Assembly (NCBI GenBank): GCA_002786785.1
Contig: PCUD01000045.1
Location: forward strand, 100,781 to 136,248
Reading direction: 5' to 3'
Origin: Ignavibacteriales bacterium CG18_big_fil_WC_8_21_14_2_50_31_20
GTDB lineage: Bacteria > Bacteroidota > Ignavibacteria > Ignavibacteriales > Melioribacteraceae
Length of the DNA stretch: 35,468 nucleotides
The position numbers and the translations under genes were made by a program. Below, in pieces: positions 14,100 through 19,524 of this stretch (its first letter is position 1; each line of letters opens with the position of its first letter). The notes beneath the pieces are model-generated. The model worked only from the letters and a program-made list of their open reading frames with translations, made no database searches and was not told the DNA's origin.

Positions 14100-14732
14100 A
14101 TGGAAAAAAATATTAATCTAGATAATTGGAAAAGAAAGGAGCATTTTAATTTTTTTTCAAAATATGACGAGCCTTTTTGGGGTGTTGTTACAGAGATTGA
14201 TTGTACCAAAGCTTATGAAAACACAAAAAAACATAATCAATCTTTTTTTCTTTACTATCTGCATCAATCCATAATTGCTATTAATCAAATTGAAGAATTT
14301 TGTTTTCGAATTAAAGATGGAAAAGTTGTTTGTTTTGACATAATTAATGTTGCAACAACTATAGGGCGCAGTGATGAATCTTTTGGATATTCCTTTATGG
14401 AGTATAAAGATGATTTTGAAGCTTTCACAAATCTTGCAAAAAAGGAAATATCAAGAATAAAAAATAATAGTGGATTATGCCTTAATGAAGATTCAGAAAG
14501 AGTTGATGTAGTTCATTATTCAACTTTACCTTGGACAAAATTTACTGGTTTAACGCATGCAAGAAATTTTAAGAAAGTTGATTCTATTCCCAAAATAGTA
14601 TTTGGGAAATATTACAATACTAGTGATGGTAAAAAAATTATGAATGTTTCTTTAAATGCCCATCATGGATTAGCAGACGGAATTCACGCAGCTAAATTTT
14701 TTGACTTATTTCAAAAATTGATGGATAATTAA
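14100..14732 (+). CDS. CatA-like chloramphenicol acetyltransferase family protein
   Basis: The protein has the trimeric acyl-CoA-dependent acyltransferase fold of type A chloramphenicol acetyltransferases. The catalytic motif H-H-x-x-x-D-G is intact (H188, H189, D193, G194 in NAHHGLADGIHAAKFF), and the N-terminal NWKRKEHFNFF resembles the CatA start. The 210-residue length is typical. Such genes occur on chromosomes of many Bacteroidetes-related species without known resistance, so the natural acceptor may be another small molecule. No mobile element flanks it and its base composition matches its surroundings. AGGA at 14087-14090 precedes the ATG. Function as a resistance gene is not shown by sequence alone. 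Confidence 0.85.
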   Translation: MEKNINLDNWKRKEHFNFFSKYDEPFWGVVTEIDCTKAYENTKKHNQSFFLYYLHQSIIAINQIEEFCFRIKDGKVVCFDIINVATTIGRSDESFGYSFMEYKDDFEAFTNLAKKEISRIKNNSGLCLNEDSERVDVVHYSTLPWTKFTGLTHARNFKKVDSIPKIVFGKYYNTSDGKKIMNVSLNAHHGLADGIHAAKFFDLFQKLMDN

Positions 14733-15372: not shown

Positions 15373-16182
15373 ATGAAAAAAAAATTACAGTATGGTTTAT
15401 TTTTTGTTGCAATATTTTTCTTTTTTTCGTGCAATAATTCCAAAATTGATGAAAAATTAAACCATCAAGTTAACCACGAATTAAACAAAGATTGTGGTGA
15501 AGTGCATTGGACTTATAATGAAGATGAACACGGACCAACTAATTGGAAAAATTTATGCGATGGTTTTTCTGCATGTGGTGAAAAGTCACAATCACCAATT
15601 AATATTATTACAAATGAAGGAATAGTAGATTCAAATTTATTAGCTTTAGAAATTAATTACATTTCCACACCAGTAAATATTGTTAACAATGGGCATACAA
15701 TTCAATTTAATGTTTCTGGAAATAACACAATTTCAATTAGTGATAAAGATTATAAGTTGTTGCAGTTCCATTTTCATGCAAAAAGTGAGCATACTATGAA
15801 TGGTAACCATTATCCAATTGAAGTTCATTTTGTAAATCAATATTCATCTTCAGATTATTCCGTTATTGGGGTTATGTTTGAAGAAGGTGAAATTAACGAA
15901 TTACTAACTGAATTTTTACCAATATTTCCAGAATCGAAAGGCGAATATAATTCGGAAAAAATTATTGATTTGAAAAAACTATTCCCAAACAATTTAAGCT
16001 ATTATAATTATAATGGTTCTTTAACAACACCACCTTGTTCGGAAGTTGTAAATTGGATTGTGTTAAAAAATACTATCGAAGCCTCAAATGAACAAATTGA
16101 AAAATTTTCAAAGATACTAAATGGAAATTACAGACCAATTATGCCATTGAATGAGCGAAAAATTTTGATGTTTAATGAATAA
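15373..16182 (+). CDS. Alpha-type carbonic anhydrase, lipoprotein
   Basis: This zinc enzyme hydrates CO2 to bicarbonate, here probably outside the inner membrane. The 269-residue protein has a lipoprotein signal peptide ending FFSC (Cys20). The catalytic domain (about 45-268) includes SQSPINI and zinc ligands H133, H135 (QFHFHAKSEH) and H152 (IEVHFVNQ). The later block GSLTTPPCSEVVNW holds the substrate-site Thr and a Cys likely to pair with the upstream Cys in SACGE. GAGGAAATA precedes the ATG. It is convergent with the aminotransferase gene, with a hairpin between them. Confidence 0.93.
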   Translation: MKKKLQYGLFFVAIFFFFSCNNSKIDEKLNHQVNHELNKDCGEVHWTYNEDEHGPTNWKNLCDGFSACGEKSQSPINIITNEGIVDSNLLALEINYISTPVNIVNNGHTIQFNVSGNNTISISDKDYKLLQFHFHAKSEHTMNGNHYPIEVHFVNQYSSSDYSVIGVMFEEGEINELLTEFLPIFPESKGEYNSEKIIDLKKLFPNNLSYYNYNGSLTTPPCSEVVNWIVLKNTIEASNEQIEKFSKILNGNYRPIMPLNERKILMFNE

Positions 16183-16254: not shown

Positions 16255-17409
16255 TTATTTCAATATTCGATTTAATACTTCAGCTACTTTATCTAATTGT
16301 TCATAAGTAATAACAGCGGGAGGAAGCATGCGCAATACAATTTTTCCTGCTGGCATTGCTAAAATATTTTCTTCCATTAATTGTTGTAAAATTGGTTGAA
16401 CTTTTTCCTTTAGTTCAATTCCAATCATTAAACCTTTATGCCTAACTTCTCTAACTTTTGAAAGTTCATCTACATTTAATTTGCTAACAAAGTAATCACC
16501 TTTTTCTTTAGCTTGCTTTGCGAGGTTGGCTTTTTGCATAAATGTAATGGCAGCTAAACCAGCAGCTGAAGCAAGTGGATTTCCACCAAAAGTTGTTCCA
16601 TGCTGACCAAATCCTATTTTAACTTTATCCGAACATATTGCAGCGCCCATAGGAAATCCACCAGCAATACCTTTAGCCACAGTAATAATATCAGCTTCAA
16701 TTCCAAAATGATTTATTGCAAACATTTTGCCTGTTCTACAAAAACCAGATTGAATTTCATCAATTATCAAAAGTACATTGTTTTTATCACAAAGTGAGCG
16801 AACACCCTCAAGATATTTTTGTGAAGCAATATTAATTCCCCCTTCACCTTGAATTACTTCCAAAATAATACCAGCTGTTTTCGGTGTAATCGCTTCTTCC
16901 ATTTTTTCGAGATTATTGAATGGAACAAAAGTAAATCCAGGAACGAGTGGTTCAAAGGGAGTTCGGTATTCTTCTTTATAAGTCCCACTTAAAGCGCCCA
17001 TAGTTCTTCCATGAAAACTATTCACAGTTGTAATAAAATCTGTTTTGCCAGTTGAAACACGTGTAAATTTAATCGCTGCTTCCATTGCTTCCGTGCCAGA
17101 ATTTGTAAGGAACGAACGTTTTAAATTTGAAGGTGTAATTTCATTTAGTTTTTCTAACAAAAGAGCTCTTGTATCATTATAAAAAACACAAGCGTTTGTA
17201 ATAAGTGTTTCGGCTTGCTTAGTTATAGCTTTAACTAATTCTGGATTTGAATGACCGATTGTTGCTACACCAATACCAGCAGCACAATCAATAAATTCCT
17301 TACCATTTTCATCCCAAACAGTTGCATCTTTTCCTTTTACAATAACTAAATCTCTCTTTGGATAAACTGCAACTTCATAATTGTCAATTAATTCTCTAAA
17401 ATTTTTCAT
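16255..17409 (-). CDS. LysJ/ArgD-type aminotransferase (LysW-lysine or acetylornithine aminotransferase)
   Basis: This is a class III PLP-dependent aminotransferase of 384 residues. Motifs: [13 protein letters not shown] (103-115, PLP phosphate contact), [19 protein letters not shown] (217-227) and the Schiff-base lysine K246 in TVAKGIAGG. The family transfers an amino group from glutamate to N-acetyl-glutamate semialdehyde (ArgD) or to the carrier-bound aminoadipate semialdehyde (LysJ). From memory, the segments [29 protein letters not shown] and [10 protein letters not shown] look closer to Thermus LysJ than to E. coli ArgD. A LysW-type carrier gene lies 238 nt upstream on the same strand, which strongly suggests a carrier-bound substrate. 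It has its own promoter (17470-17500) and an AAGGA site before the ATG. Whether it makes lysine, ornithine or both is not settled by sequence. Confidence 0.88.
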
Positions 17410-17469
17410 TGGATTATGGTTCCTTCACCATTTATTGCATTTGTAATTGGATTATTTTTTCGACCATCA

Positions 17470-17500
17470 CAAATGTAAACAGAAGTTTTTCTTTTTCAAA
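17470..17500 (-). promoter_or_regulatory. Bacteroidetes-type promoter of the aminotransferase gene
   Basis: On the minus strand TTTG (17500-17497) is followed after exactly 19 nt by TACATTTG (17477-17470). This is a full match to the Bacteroidetes primary-sigma consensus TTTG-N19/21-TAnnTTTG. Transcription would begin near 17463, leaving a leader of about 55 nt with an AAGGA ribosome-binding site before the ATG at 17409. Confidence 0.75.
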
Positions 17501-17540
17501 TGATTTATAATTGAACGGAATTAAATTTAACTAACTAACA

Positions 17541-17561
17541 TGGATTTTGGGGCAAAATCCA
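17541..17561. other. Perfect 9-bp hairpin between lysW and the aminotransferase gene
   Basis: TGGATTTTG (17541-17549) and CAAAATCCA (17553-17561) form a perfect inverted repeat around GGG. It lies 86 nt after the lysW stop in the direction of transcription and upstream of the aminotransferase promoter. Neither strand has a clear T run after it, so it is a poor intrinsic terminator. It could instead be an operator or an mRNA-stabilising stem. Confidence 0.4.
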
Positions 17562-17647
17562 AATTTTAAGTTGAAAACTCATTATCATGCGGTTTAAATG
17601 TGATAAAAATATCTTTTTAAGTCATTTCAAAAAAAATAAAAAATTAT

Positions 17648-17812
17648 TTATTCGTCCCAATCTTCTTCTTCAATTGTAGCTTCTGAGATTTTAAATGGGC
17701 TCATTTTAATAACTTCTAATTCAATACCGCAATCTGGACATTCAAATAATTCGCCAACTACCATTCCAGGTTCTTTTTCAACTTCAGCTCCACACATAGG
17801 ACATTTAGCCAT
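17648..17812 (-). CDS. lysW: LysW-type amino-group carrier protein
   Basis: This small gene encodes 54 residues, exactly the length of Thermus LysW. The N-terminal half has two Cys pairs (MAKCPMCGAEVEK and FECPDCGIELEV; C4, C7, C25, C28) forming the LysW zinc-ribbon. The C-terminus is acidic and ends EEEDWDE, close to the LysW signature EDWGE. In known systems the side chain of the terminal Glu is joined to the amino group of aminoadipate or glutamate. The intermediate is then carried through LysZ, LysY and LysJ and released by LysK. AAGGAAA lies 7 nt before the ATG. The LysJ-like aminotransferase lies just downstream. The Gly-to-Asp change at residue 53 is unusual to my knowledge. Ligase, kinase, reductase and hydrolase partners are not in the window. 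Confidence 0.88.
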   Translation of the reverse strand: MAKCPMCGAEVEKEPGMVVGELFECPDCGIELEVIKMSPFKISEATIEEEDWDE

Positions 17813-18132: not shown

Positions 18133-19524
18133 ATGGAATACAGAATTGAAACTGATTCAATGGGCGAAATTAAAGTGCCAACAGATAAGTATTATGGAGC
18201 ACAAACAGCTCGCTCATTAATGAATTTCAAAATTGGTGGTGAAAGATTTCCGCGTGAATTAATTAGAGCATTGGGAATATTAAAAAAAGCGGCAGCATTA
18301 ACAAATGGTGAGCTTAAAATGCTTTCGCAAGAAAAAGTTGAACTGATTATTAGAGCTGCCGATGAAGTAATTGAAGGAAAACTTGATGAACATTTTCCAC
18401 TTGTTGTTTGGCAAACTGGTAGTGGAACTCAAACAAATATGAATTCTAATGAAGTTATTTCGAACCGAGCTATTGAAATGGCTGGCGGTGAAATGGGAAG
18501 TAAAAAGCCAATTCATCCAAACGATGATGTAAATAAAGCTCAATCGTCAAACGACACTTTCCCAACAGCAATGCATATAGCTGCCGTTGAAGAGGTAAAT
18601 CGCAGATTAATTCCTATGGTAACAAAGCTTCGTGATGCCCTTGCTGATAAATCGGAAGAATTTAAAAATATAATTAAAATTGGAAGAACTCACTTAATGG
18701 ATGCTACTCCACTGACTCTTGGGCAAGAATTTTCTGGATATACACAACAATTAACAAATGGTTTGGCAAGAATTAATGGTGCTTTACCAAGACTTTCGGA
18801 ATTAGCTTTGGGTGGAACTGCTGTTGGAACAGGCTTAAATACACACAAAGATTTTGCCGTTTTATCTGCAAAAAAAATATCAGAACTTACGGGGCTTCAA
18901 TTTACAACAGCACCAAATAAATTTGAAGCACTTGCTGCGCACGATGCAATTGTTGAATTTAGCGGTGTTTTAAAGACAATTGGTGCTTCACTTCATAAAA
19001 TTGCTAACGATATTCGTTGGATGGGCTCTGGTCCAAGAAGCGGACTTGGAGAATTGGCACTACCGGAAAATGAACCAGGAAGCTCAATTATGCCAGGTAA
19101 AGTGAATCCTACACAAGCAGAGGCTATAACAATGGTTTGTGCTCAAGTTTTTGGAAATGATGCTGCTATTGGTTTTGCTGGAGCAAGTGGAAACTTTGAG
19201 CTAAATGTATACAAGCCAGTAATGATATTTAATTTACTCCAATCAATTAAATTAATTTCTGATTCTTGTGAAAGCTTTACTGACAATATGGTTGTTGGAA
19301 TTAAACCTAACAAAAATAAAATTGATGAACTGCTTCGCCAATCTTTAATGTTGGTTACTGCACTAAATCCACACATTGGATATGACAATGCAGCAAAAGT
19401 TGCTAAAAAAGCATTTCATGATAACTCAACTTTAAAAGAAGCTGTTGTTGAACTTGGACTTTTAACTGCTGAAGAGTTTGATGCAAAAGTTAAACCAGAA
19501 GAAATGATTGGTCCAAAAGCCTAA
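18133..19524 (+). CDS. fumC: Class II fumarate hydratase
   Basis: FumC reversibly hydrates fumarate to L-malate in the TCA cycle and needs no iron-sulfur cluster. The 463-residue protein belongs to the fumarase/aspartase superfamily. Visible motifs are [17 protein letters not shown] near the N-terminus, [20 protein letters not shown], the NDTFPTAMH block, [16 protein letters not shown] and the signature [13 protein letters not shown]. The homotetramer is cytoplasmic. A strong AAAAGGAG Shine-Dalgarno sets the ATG. It is monocistronic, with a perfect 15-bp terminator 6 nt after the stop. Aspartase has a similar sequence, but length and local motifs favour fumarase. Confidence 0.96.

Follow-up and report, generated by a model that had tools for sequence, protein, structure and literature searches.

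The window analysed here, a stretch of 35,468 nucleotides from the draft genome of Ignavibacteriales bacterium CG18_big_fil_WC_8_21_14_2_50_31_20 (3.81-Mb, 182 contigs, 99.4% complete), contains a gene for a LysW-type carrier protein next to a gene for a LysJ-like aminotransferase. This raises the question whether the organism synthesises lysine or ornithine on a carrier protein, as had been proposed for an Ignavibacteria-like host in a sequence-only reading of the window. The host was placed correctly; its relatives are Melioribacteraceae and other Ignavibacteria, e.g. Stygiobacter electus and Melioribacter. Carrier-based synthesis is supported for the close relatives, which have a full LysW operon, but not for the window genome, in which the pathway is broken. 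We regard it as quite likely that two events together explain these findings: a deletion in the window genome and, in the intact operon of the relatives, the use of an EgtC-like Ntn-hydrolase (GAT) as a substitute for LysK.

Remnants of a LysW operon in the window

The lysW gene (positions 17648 to 17812, minus strand) encodes a protein of 54 amino acids with four zinc-ribbon cysteines in two CxxC pairs, and its length, coordinates and strand are those predicted from the sequence alone. The protein belongs to the zinc-ribbon family PF21344 (53.1 bits, cut-off 27, E-value 2.5e-14) and matches the structure of Thermus LysW (3wwl, E-value 2e-10). With 52.3 bits it lies just under the TIGR01206 cut-off of 53.2, so that automatic naming may miss the gene; the LysW of the sister genome scores 62.4. 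The predicted acidic end (EDW-x-E) is present as EEEDWDE, which deviates from the canonical EDWGE, the motif recognised by LysX/ArgX (PMC10433800). The tail reads EATIEEEDWDE where the relatives have AP-x-EEEDWG[E/Q], with EDWG[E/Q] found in 20 out of 20 relatives, and the changes P46T, Q47I and G53D in this otherwise constant tail are specific to the window genome.

The aminotransferase gene (16255 to 17409, minus strand) encodes an intact protein of 384 amino acids, a LysJ-type [LysW]-aminoadipate-semialdehyde aminotransferase in which the catalytic lysine in TVAKG is kept. It scores almost equally against the Thermus LysJ model (432 bits) and a general ArgD model (435 bits), whereas the true ArgD of the same genome reaches 293 and 486 bits, respectively. 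The NCBIfam LysJ equivalog cut-offs of 700 bits, which are lineage-specific, lie above its 432 bits. The best match in the PDB is the Thermus protein 1vef. In a tree of 37 aminotransferases the LysW-operon enzymes are split from ArgD with a support of 99/98, and the window enzyme stands beside the LysJ of the sister genome G068. Its placement in the LysJ clade rules out an assignment as ArgD. The preference for LysJ over ArgD in the sequence-only reading is thus supported by tree and model scores, and a grouping with ArgD, which would have spoken against that reading, was not observed.

Between lysW and lysJ lies a gap of 238 bases consisting of 158 bases of A+T-rich filler (17490 to 17647, minus strand) and the last 80 bases of lysZ. 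This lysZ fossil (17406 to 17489, minus strand) includes a TGA overlapping the start codon of the aminotransferase gene and carries a GAAGGA motif resembling a ribosome-binding site ahead of that gene; it encodes 25 protein letters and is identical to G068 in 80 of 80 bases. The flanking genes in the window, namely an upstream class II fumarase (18133 to 19524, plus strand; PF00206/PF10415) and a downstream alpha-type carbonic anhydrase (15373 to 16182, plus strand; PF00194), are shared by the sister genome, in which all seven operon genes are present between them. In the window the genes for homocitrate synthase, LysX, LysY and the Ntn-hydrolase as well as most of lysZ are missing, and the filler stands in their place. 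Judged from these sequence comparisons the gap is a deletion scar and not ordinary intergenic space. The lysW and lysJ genes are almost certainly the two ends of a seven-gene LysW lysine operon the middle of which was deleted in the window genome.

No homologue of the filler was found by BLAST among the compared loci except for short chance matches, and a mobile element as its source was rejected since the compared sequences contain no copy of it. It includes a hairpin with a perfect 9-bp stem (TGGATTTTG CCC CAAAATCCA; 17541 to 17562), which occurs once in the window. The region from 16255 to 17489 shows a mosaic identity to the sister locus L053, with 94-100% at the lysJ ends and the lysZ tail, 76-92% in the middle of lysJ and far lower values just outside the region, a pattern that recombination at the locus might have left. 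A gene of the chloramphenicol-acetyltransferase family (PF00302, 86 bits) is located elsewhere in the window at 14100 to 14732 on the plus strand.

The intact operon of the relatives

LysW was detected above the Pfam cut-off in 43 of 146 genomes of the order. All 20 relatives whose neighbourhood was examined share the gene order lysW-homocitrate synthase-lysX-lysY-GAT-lysZ-lysJ, GAT being a protein of 212 amino acids; no LysK was found in this operon. The LysX proteins of the relatives contain GSWGR and NEVNYTMEFKNS, matching NEVNHTMEFKNS of Thermus LysX and unlike NELNDVPEFKGF of Sulfolobus ArgX, i.e. they carry the NxT...KNS signature and not the GF of ArgX. Since this aminoadipate-type signature occurs together with a homocitrate synthase, lysine formation from aminoadipate is indicated rather than ornithine formation, and the intact operon very probably serves to make lysine.

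In the proposed route homocitrate synthase would start the aminoadipate pathway and LysX would join aminoadipate to the gamma-carboxyl group of the C-terminal Glu of LysW. The carrier-bound aminoadipate would then be phosphorylated, reduced and aminated by LysZ, LysY and LysJ to give LysW-gamma-Lys, from which GAT would release lysine in place of LysK by a Cys2-dependent cleavage of the gamma-glutamyl amide linkage.

Carrier, ligase (GSWGR, NxT-MEFKNS), kinase, reductase, aminotransferase and homocitrate synthase, encoded in one operon, are common to this system and the LysW pathway of Thermus and Deinococcus. However, the operon of the relatives lacks LysK, has an EgtC-like Ntn-hydrolase gene between lysY and lysZ and encodes a LysW that may end in Gln, and the operon of the window genome is broken. 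A locus comprising LysWXZYJ and Hcs has been listed in a related phylum for Caldithrix abyssi (Cabys_3146-3153), with the remaining steps left open in the passage concerned (PMC5317091). According to that passage the operon is therefore not new in this part of the tree, but the extra hydrolase is not named there; a Caldithrix genome (L175) shows the same gene order including GAT.

A candidate lysine-releasing enzyme

GAT is not EgtC itself, as it reaches only 35 bits against the EgtC equivalog TIGR03442 (cut-off 218.65); against Pfam GATase_4 it scores 15.5 bits (cut-off 23). Its AlphaFold (AF2) model has a pLDDT of 96, and Foldseek identified EgtC as the best fold in the PDB (TM 0.82, E-value 2e-13), which places GAT among the Ntn-hydrolases by fold. 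The active-site pattern C2, R75, N101 and G102 is invariant in 49 sequences from many phyla.

The reaction catalysed by EgtC is the hydrolysis of a gamma-glutamyl amide. As the bond in LysW-gamma-Lys is of this kind too, an EgtC-type chemistry would fit GAT, and by analogy we propose it for this enzyme. Fold, N-terminal Cys nucleophile, Arg and Asn-Gly are shared with EgtC (gamma-glutamyl-hercynylcysteine-sulfoxide amidohydrolase; 4zfj, 4zfl), whereas the sequence identity amounts to 15-16% and the proposed substrate of GAT is the C-terminus of a protein instead of a small gamma-glutamyl compound.

In the alignment of the 49 sequences Gly116 is invariant as well, at the start of a helix. Compared by eye, it presumably occupies the position at which class-II glutaminases (GlmS/EgtC) keep an Asp binding the free alpha-amino group of the substrate. 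By this analogy an invariant Gly would be in keeping with a substrate in which the alpha-amino group takes part in a peptide bond.

A scan of 84,980 species genomes revealed 64 GAT loci in at least seven phyla, the hosts being Ignavibacteria, Calditrichota (including Caldithrix abyssi), KSB1, delta-proteobacteria/Desulfobacterales, SAR324, Woesearchaeota, other DPANN archaea and Patescibacteria. LysW-pathway genes adjoin 63 of these loci. The exception (L165:8001-8636), on a Woesearchaeota contig, is the sole GAT homologue located away from such genes and has a changed motif, HSRNAY. Within the order of the window genome GAT is present in 44 genomes; LysW occurs without GAT in the two genomes with deletions, in the orphan case of genome G044 described below and in one case at a contig edge. 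On the complete chromosome of archaeon GW2011_AR15 the genes form one run, W-HCS-HacA-HacB-HICDH-X-Y-GAT-Z-J, in which the large and small homoaconitase subunits (HacA, HacB) and homoisocitrate dehydrogenase (HICDH) are included.

A LysK-type peptidase was not detected with TIGR01902 in GW2011_AR15, in three other DPANN archaea and in one Parcubacterium. Overall, LysK exceeded the cut-off in 0 of 27 genomes of GAT lineages compared to 4 of 14 control genomes, absence being judged by this one profile, and an operon on a Deinococcus plasmid ends with LysK and lacks GAT. Mainly because of this mutual exclusion, GAT is likely to be the lysine-releasing enzyme that takes the place of LysK.

A different arrangement, in which an M20 or other peptidase frees lysine and GAT merely deamidates LysW-Gln or has a regulatory task, seems unlikely but is the alternative to be taken most seriously. 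M20 paralogues below the LysK cut-off are encoded in most bacterial relatives, and those found in several of them might release lysine; moreover, a Gln-ended LysW would need a deamidase anyway. However, LysW already ends in Glu in 41 of 57 GAT operons, so that deamidation alone does not explain the presence of GAT there, and GW2011_AR15, the three other DPANN genomes and the Parcubacterium have no M20 peptidase of the LysK family. The lysine-releasing step looks unassigned in Ignavibacteria, Calditrichota, several delta-proteobacterial and SAR324 lineages, DPANN archaea and Patescibacteria, and uncultured genomes of this kind could therefore be misread as those of lysine auxotrophs. If GAT does act as a lysine-releasing hydrolase, a short cassette including this candidate enzyme would close the gap.

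Glutamate and glutamine at the end of the carrier

LysX needs a C-terminal Glu, as has been established with the LysW of Thermus. Of the 58 distinct LysW-type sequences compared, 41 end in Glu, including that of the window, 16 in Gln and one, the G044 orphan, in Asp. The Gln-ended proteins, in which EDWGQ is followed by the stop codon, account for 16 of the 57 from GAT operons and show a patchy distribution over Melioribacteraceae, Calditrichota, Desulfosarcina, a DPANN archaeon and Patescibacteria. Mapped on the GAT tree, the Glu/Gln state changes 8 times, and at least 4 of these changes are forced by well-supported branches. The LysW proteins encoded without GAT in Deinococcus, Streptomyces and Staphylococcus (7 plasmid records, 6 distinct sequences) all end in Glu, but the contrast in Gln ends gives p = 0.10 in a small sample with 10 controls (plasmid records and structures).

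One of the loci examined, on the Staphylococcus epidermidis plasmid NZ_CP043848.1 (L218, 6989-14156), is a LysW-type cluster with a RimK ligase, a DegT aminotransferase, ArgC, an M20 hydrolase and a transketolase and resembles the carrier-protein natural-product clusters of Streptomyces.

Switching between Glu and Gln at the active residue of the carrier predicts a deamidation before charging. By analogy, with an enzyme of glutaminase chemistry encoded in the operon, it would not matter whether LysW is made with Glu or with Gln at this position. A precedent is known from Pup: Dop deamidates its C-terminal Gln and also cleaves the isopeptide to lysine. As in the Pup/Dop/PafA system, in which a small protein ends in Gln in some species and in Glu in others and one enzyme performs both deamidation and isopeptide cleavage, GAT may have a double role. 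In organisms whose lysW gene specifies a C-terminal Gln, GAT would first turn this residue into Glu, in parallel to the action of Dop on Pup. The folds are unrelated, however, and LysW is linked to the alpha-amino group of a metabolite and not to a lysine of a protein.

On the basis of this analogy we lean towards the view that GAT also deamidates LysW-Gln. With a similar degree of reserve we favour the wider proposal that a widespread, previously unrecognised EgtC-like Ntn-hydrolase of bacteria and archaea acts twice, in the deamidation of LysW-Gln and the hydrolysis of LysW-gamma-Lys; if true, proteins of other folds would here form a cycle resembling that of Pup and Dop. In the literature searched, with subscription papers mostly outside its range, no report was found that ties LysW to a glutaminase-type hydrolase or describes a Gln-ended LysW. 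Within these bounds both the replacement of LysK and the Gln-ended carrier appear new.

Loss of the pathway in the window genome

At the window locus lysZ is reduced to the 80-base fossil, and targeted searches of the window genome for partner enzymes of LysW covered the ligase, LysY, GAT, LysK and the homocitrate synthase. No LysX/ArgX (RimK-family) ligase was found above the cut-off, the best matches being biotin carboxylase-like; no second ArgC-type reductase that could represent LysY was detected besides the single ArgC of the arg operon; and no copy of GAT was identified. The best TIGR01902 match has 89.9 bits, compared to a LysK cut-off of 163. The search for an operon-type homocitrate synthase yielded nothing near the 333-351 bits of those enzymes, only two long paralogues (522-537 aa) of the 2-isopropylmalate/citramalate type. 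Lysine or ornithine synthesis on the carrier, as had been suggested, is thus contradicted for this genome: the ligase, LysY, the operon homocitrate synthase and GAT are absent and LysK is below the cut-off. The sequence-only reading had itself named missing ligase or LysK genes beside complete classical Dap and acetyl-ornithine routes as speaking against it. For the ligase, LysK and the arginine route this is the situation found; of the Dap route, LysA was identified but DapA and DapB were not. As LysX is missing and the motif it recognises is mutated, the window LysW can presumably no longer be charged, and LysJ would be stranded or employed in another role.

The middle of the operon has also been lost in G105, another species of the genus, while its lysJ is intact. 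Here lysW is cut after the codons for ...VEEAP and runs into lysZ, a junction that differs from that in the window. By comparison of the two junctions, the deletion in G105 is independent of that in the window genome. The cut falls at the stretch GAAGCTCC, which is also present in the lysZ of a relative and is likely to have served as microhomology.

A further genome, G044, contains an orphan LysW-like reading frame (L194:7738-7910) ending in EDWDD but no operon, no lysJ and no LysA match. This orphan may represent either another state of decay or a reused LysW.

In the window genome the loss of the pathway looks recent, as judged from its sequence. The window exemplifies an apparently recent and repeated pathway loss within one genus, whose remnants an automatic annotation would take for a functioning pathway.

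That the surviving LysW and LysJ were instead kept for a new shared function, such as a carrier for another ligase or a second ArgD/DapC, seems improbable. Both reading frames are intact in the window, the dN/dS of lysJ against the sister is low (0.057) and lysJ has stayed intact in G105 after that species' own deletion. On the other hand, LysW is truncated in G105 and mutated in the window genome, which also possesses a dedicated ArgD, and all 80 bases of the lysZ fossil still agree with the sister sequence. After so recent a loss, any decay may not yet have become visible, and for the same reason the low dN/dS does not prove a continued use of lysJ.

An assembly artefact, with a complete operon in the organism of which some 5 kb were left out of the contig, is very improbable despite the fragmentation of the draft into 182 contigs. 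The junction is no simple join but holds 158 bases of unique filler, the LysW tail is mutated at otherwise invariant residues, lysX, lysY, GAT and the operon homocitrate synthase were searched for and not found on other contigs, and a second species carries an independent deletion with another junction. Less probable still is carrier-based lysine or ornithine synthesis in the window genome by means of a ligase and further enzymes encoded at other loci, since the full length and C-terminal Glu of LysW and the conserved, intact LysJ are outweighed by the missing RimK/LysX-family ligase, GAT and operon-type homocitrate synthase, the single ArgC, the high completeness of the genome and the lysZ fossil still in place.

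Arginine and lysine biosynthesis outside the operon

For arginine synthesis in the window genome a complete acetyl operon, argCJBD-R-GH, was identified (argC, argJ, an argB-like kinase gene, argD, an argR-like gene, argG and argH), in which argB and argR were assigned from position and weak similarity. A LysW route to arginine or ornithine was rejected on account of this operon and of the aminoadipate-type LysX of the relatives.

As for the diaminopimelate (DAP) route, LysA was found (G000:C40:1130-2338, L112; 468 bits), whereas DapA and DapB went undetected in the window genome and in most relatives. All five genomes of the genus, the window genome among them, have LysA, even where the LysW operon is intact. 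The MurE of the window genome carries the DNPR motif, a mark of enzymes adding meso-DAP. The DAP genes may be so divergent that they escaped detection, or else the organism obtains its DAP from outside.

The idea that LysA cleanly replaces the LysW pathway is only partly supported. Strong LysA matches (>440 bits) occur in 6 of 41 family genomes with GAT and in 17 of 28 without it (p = 1e-4, uncorrected for kinship), but at the official cut-off the contrast vanishes (18 of 41 versus 18 of 28, p = 0.14).

The window genome also encodes a third ArgD-like aminotransferase (G000:C79:34559-35710; 382 bits), which is conserved throughout the family and forms a clade of its own.
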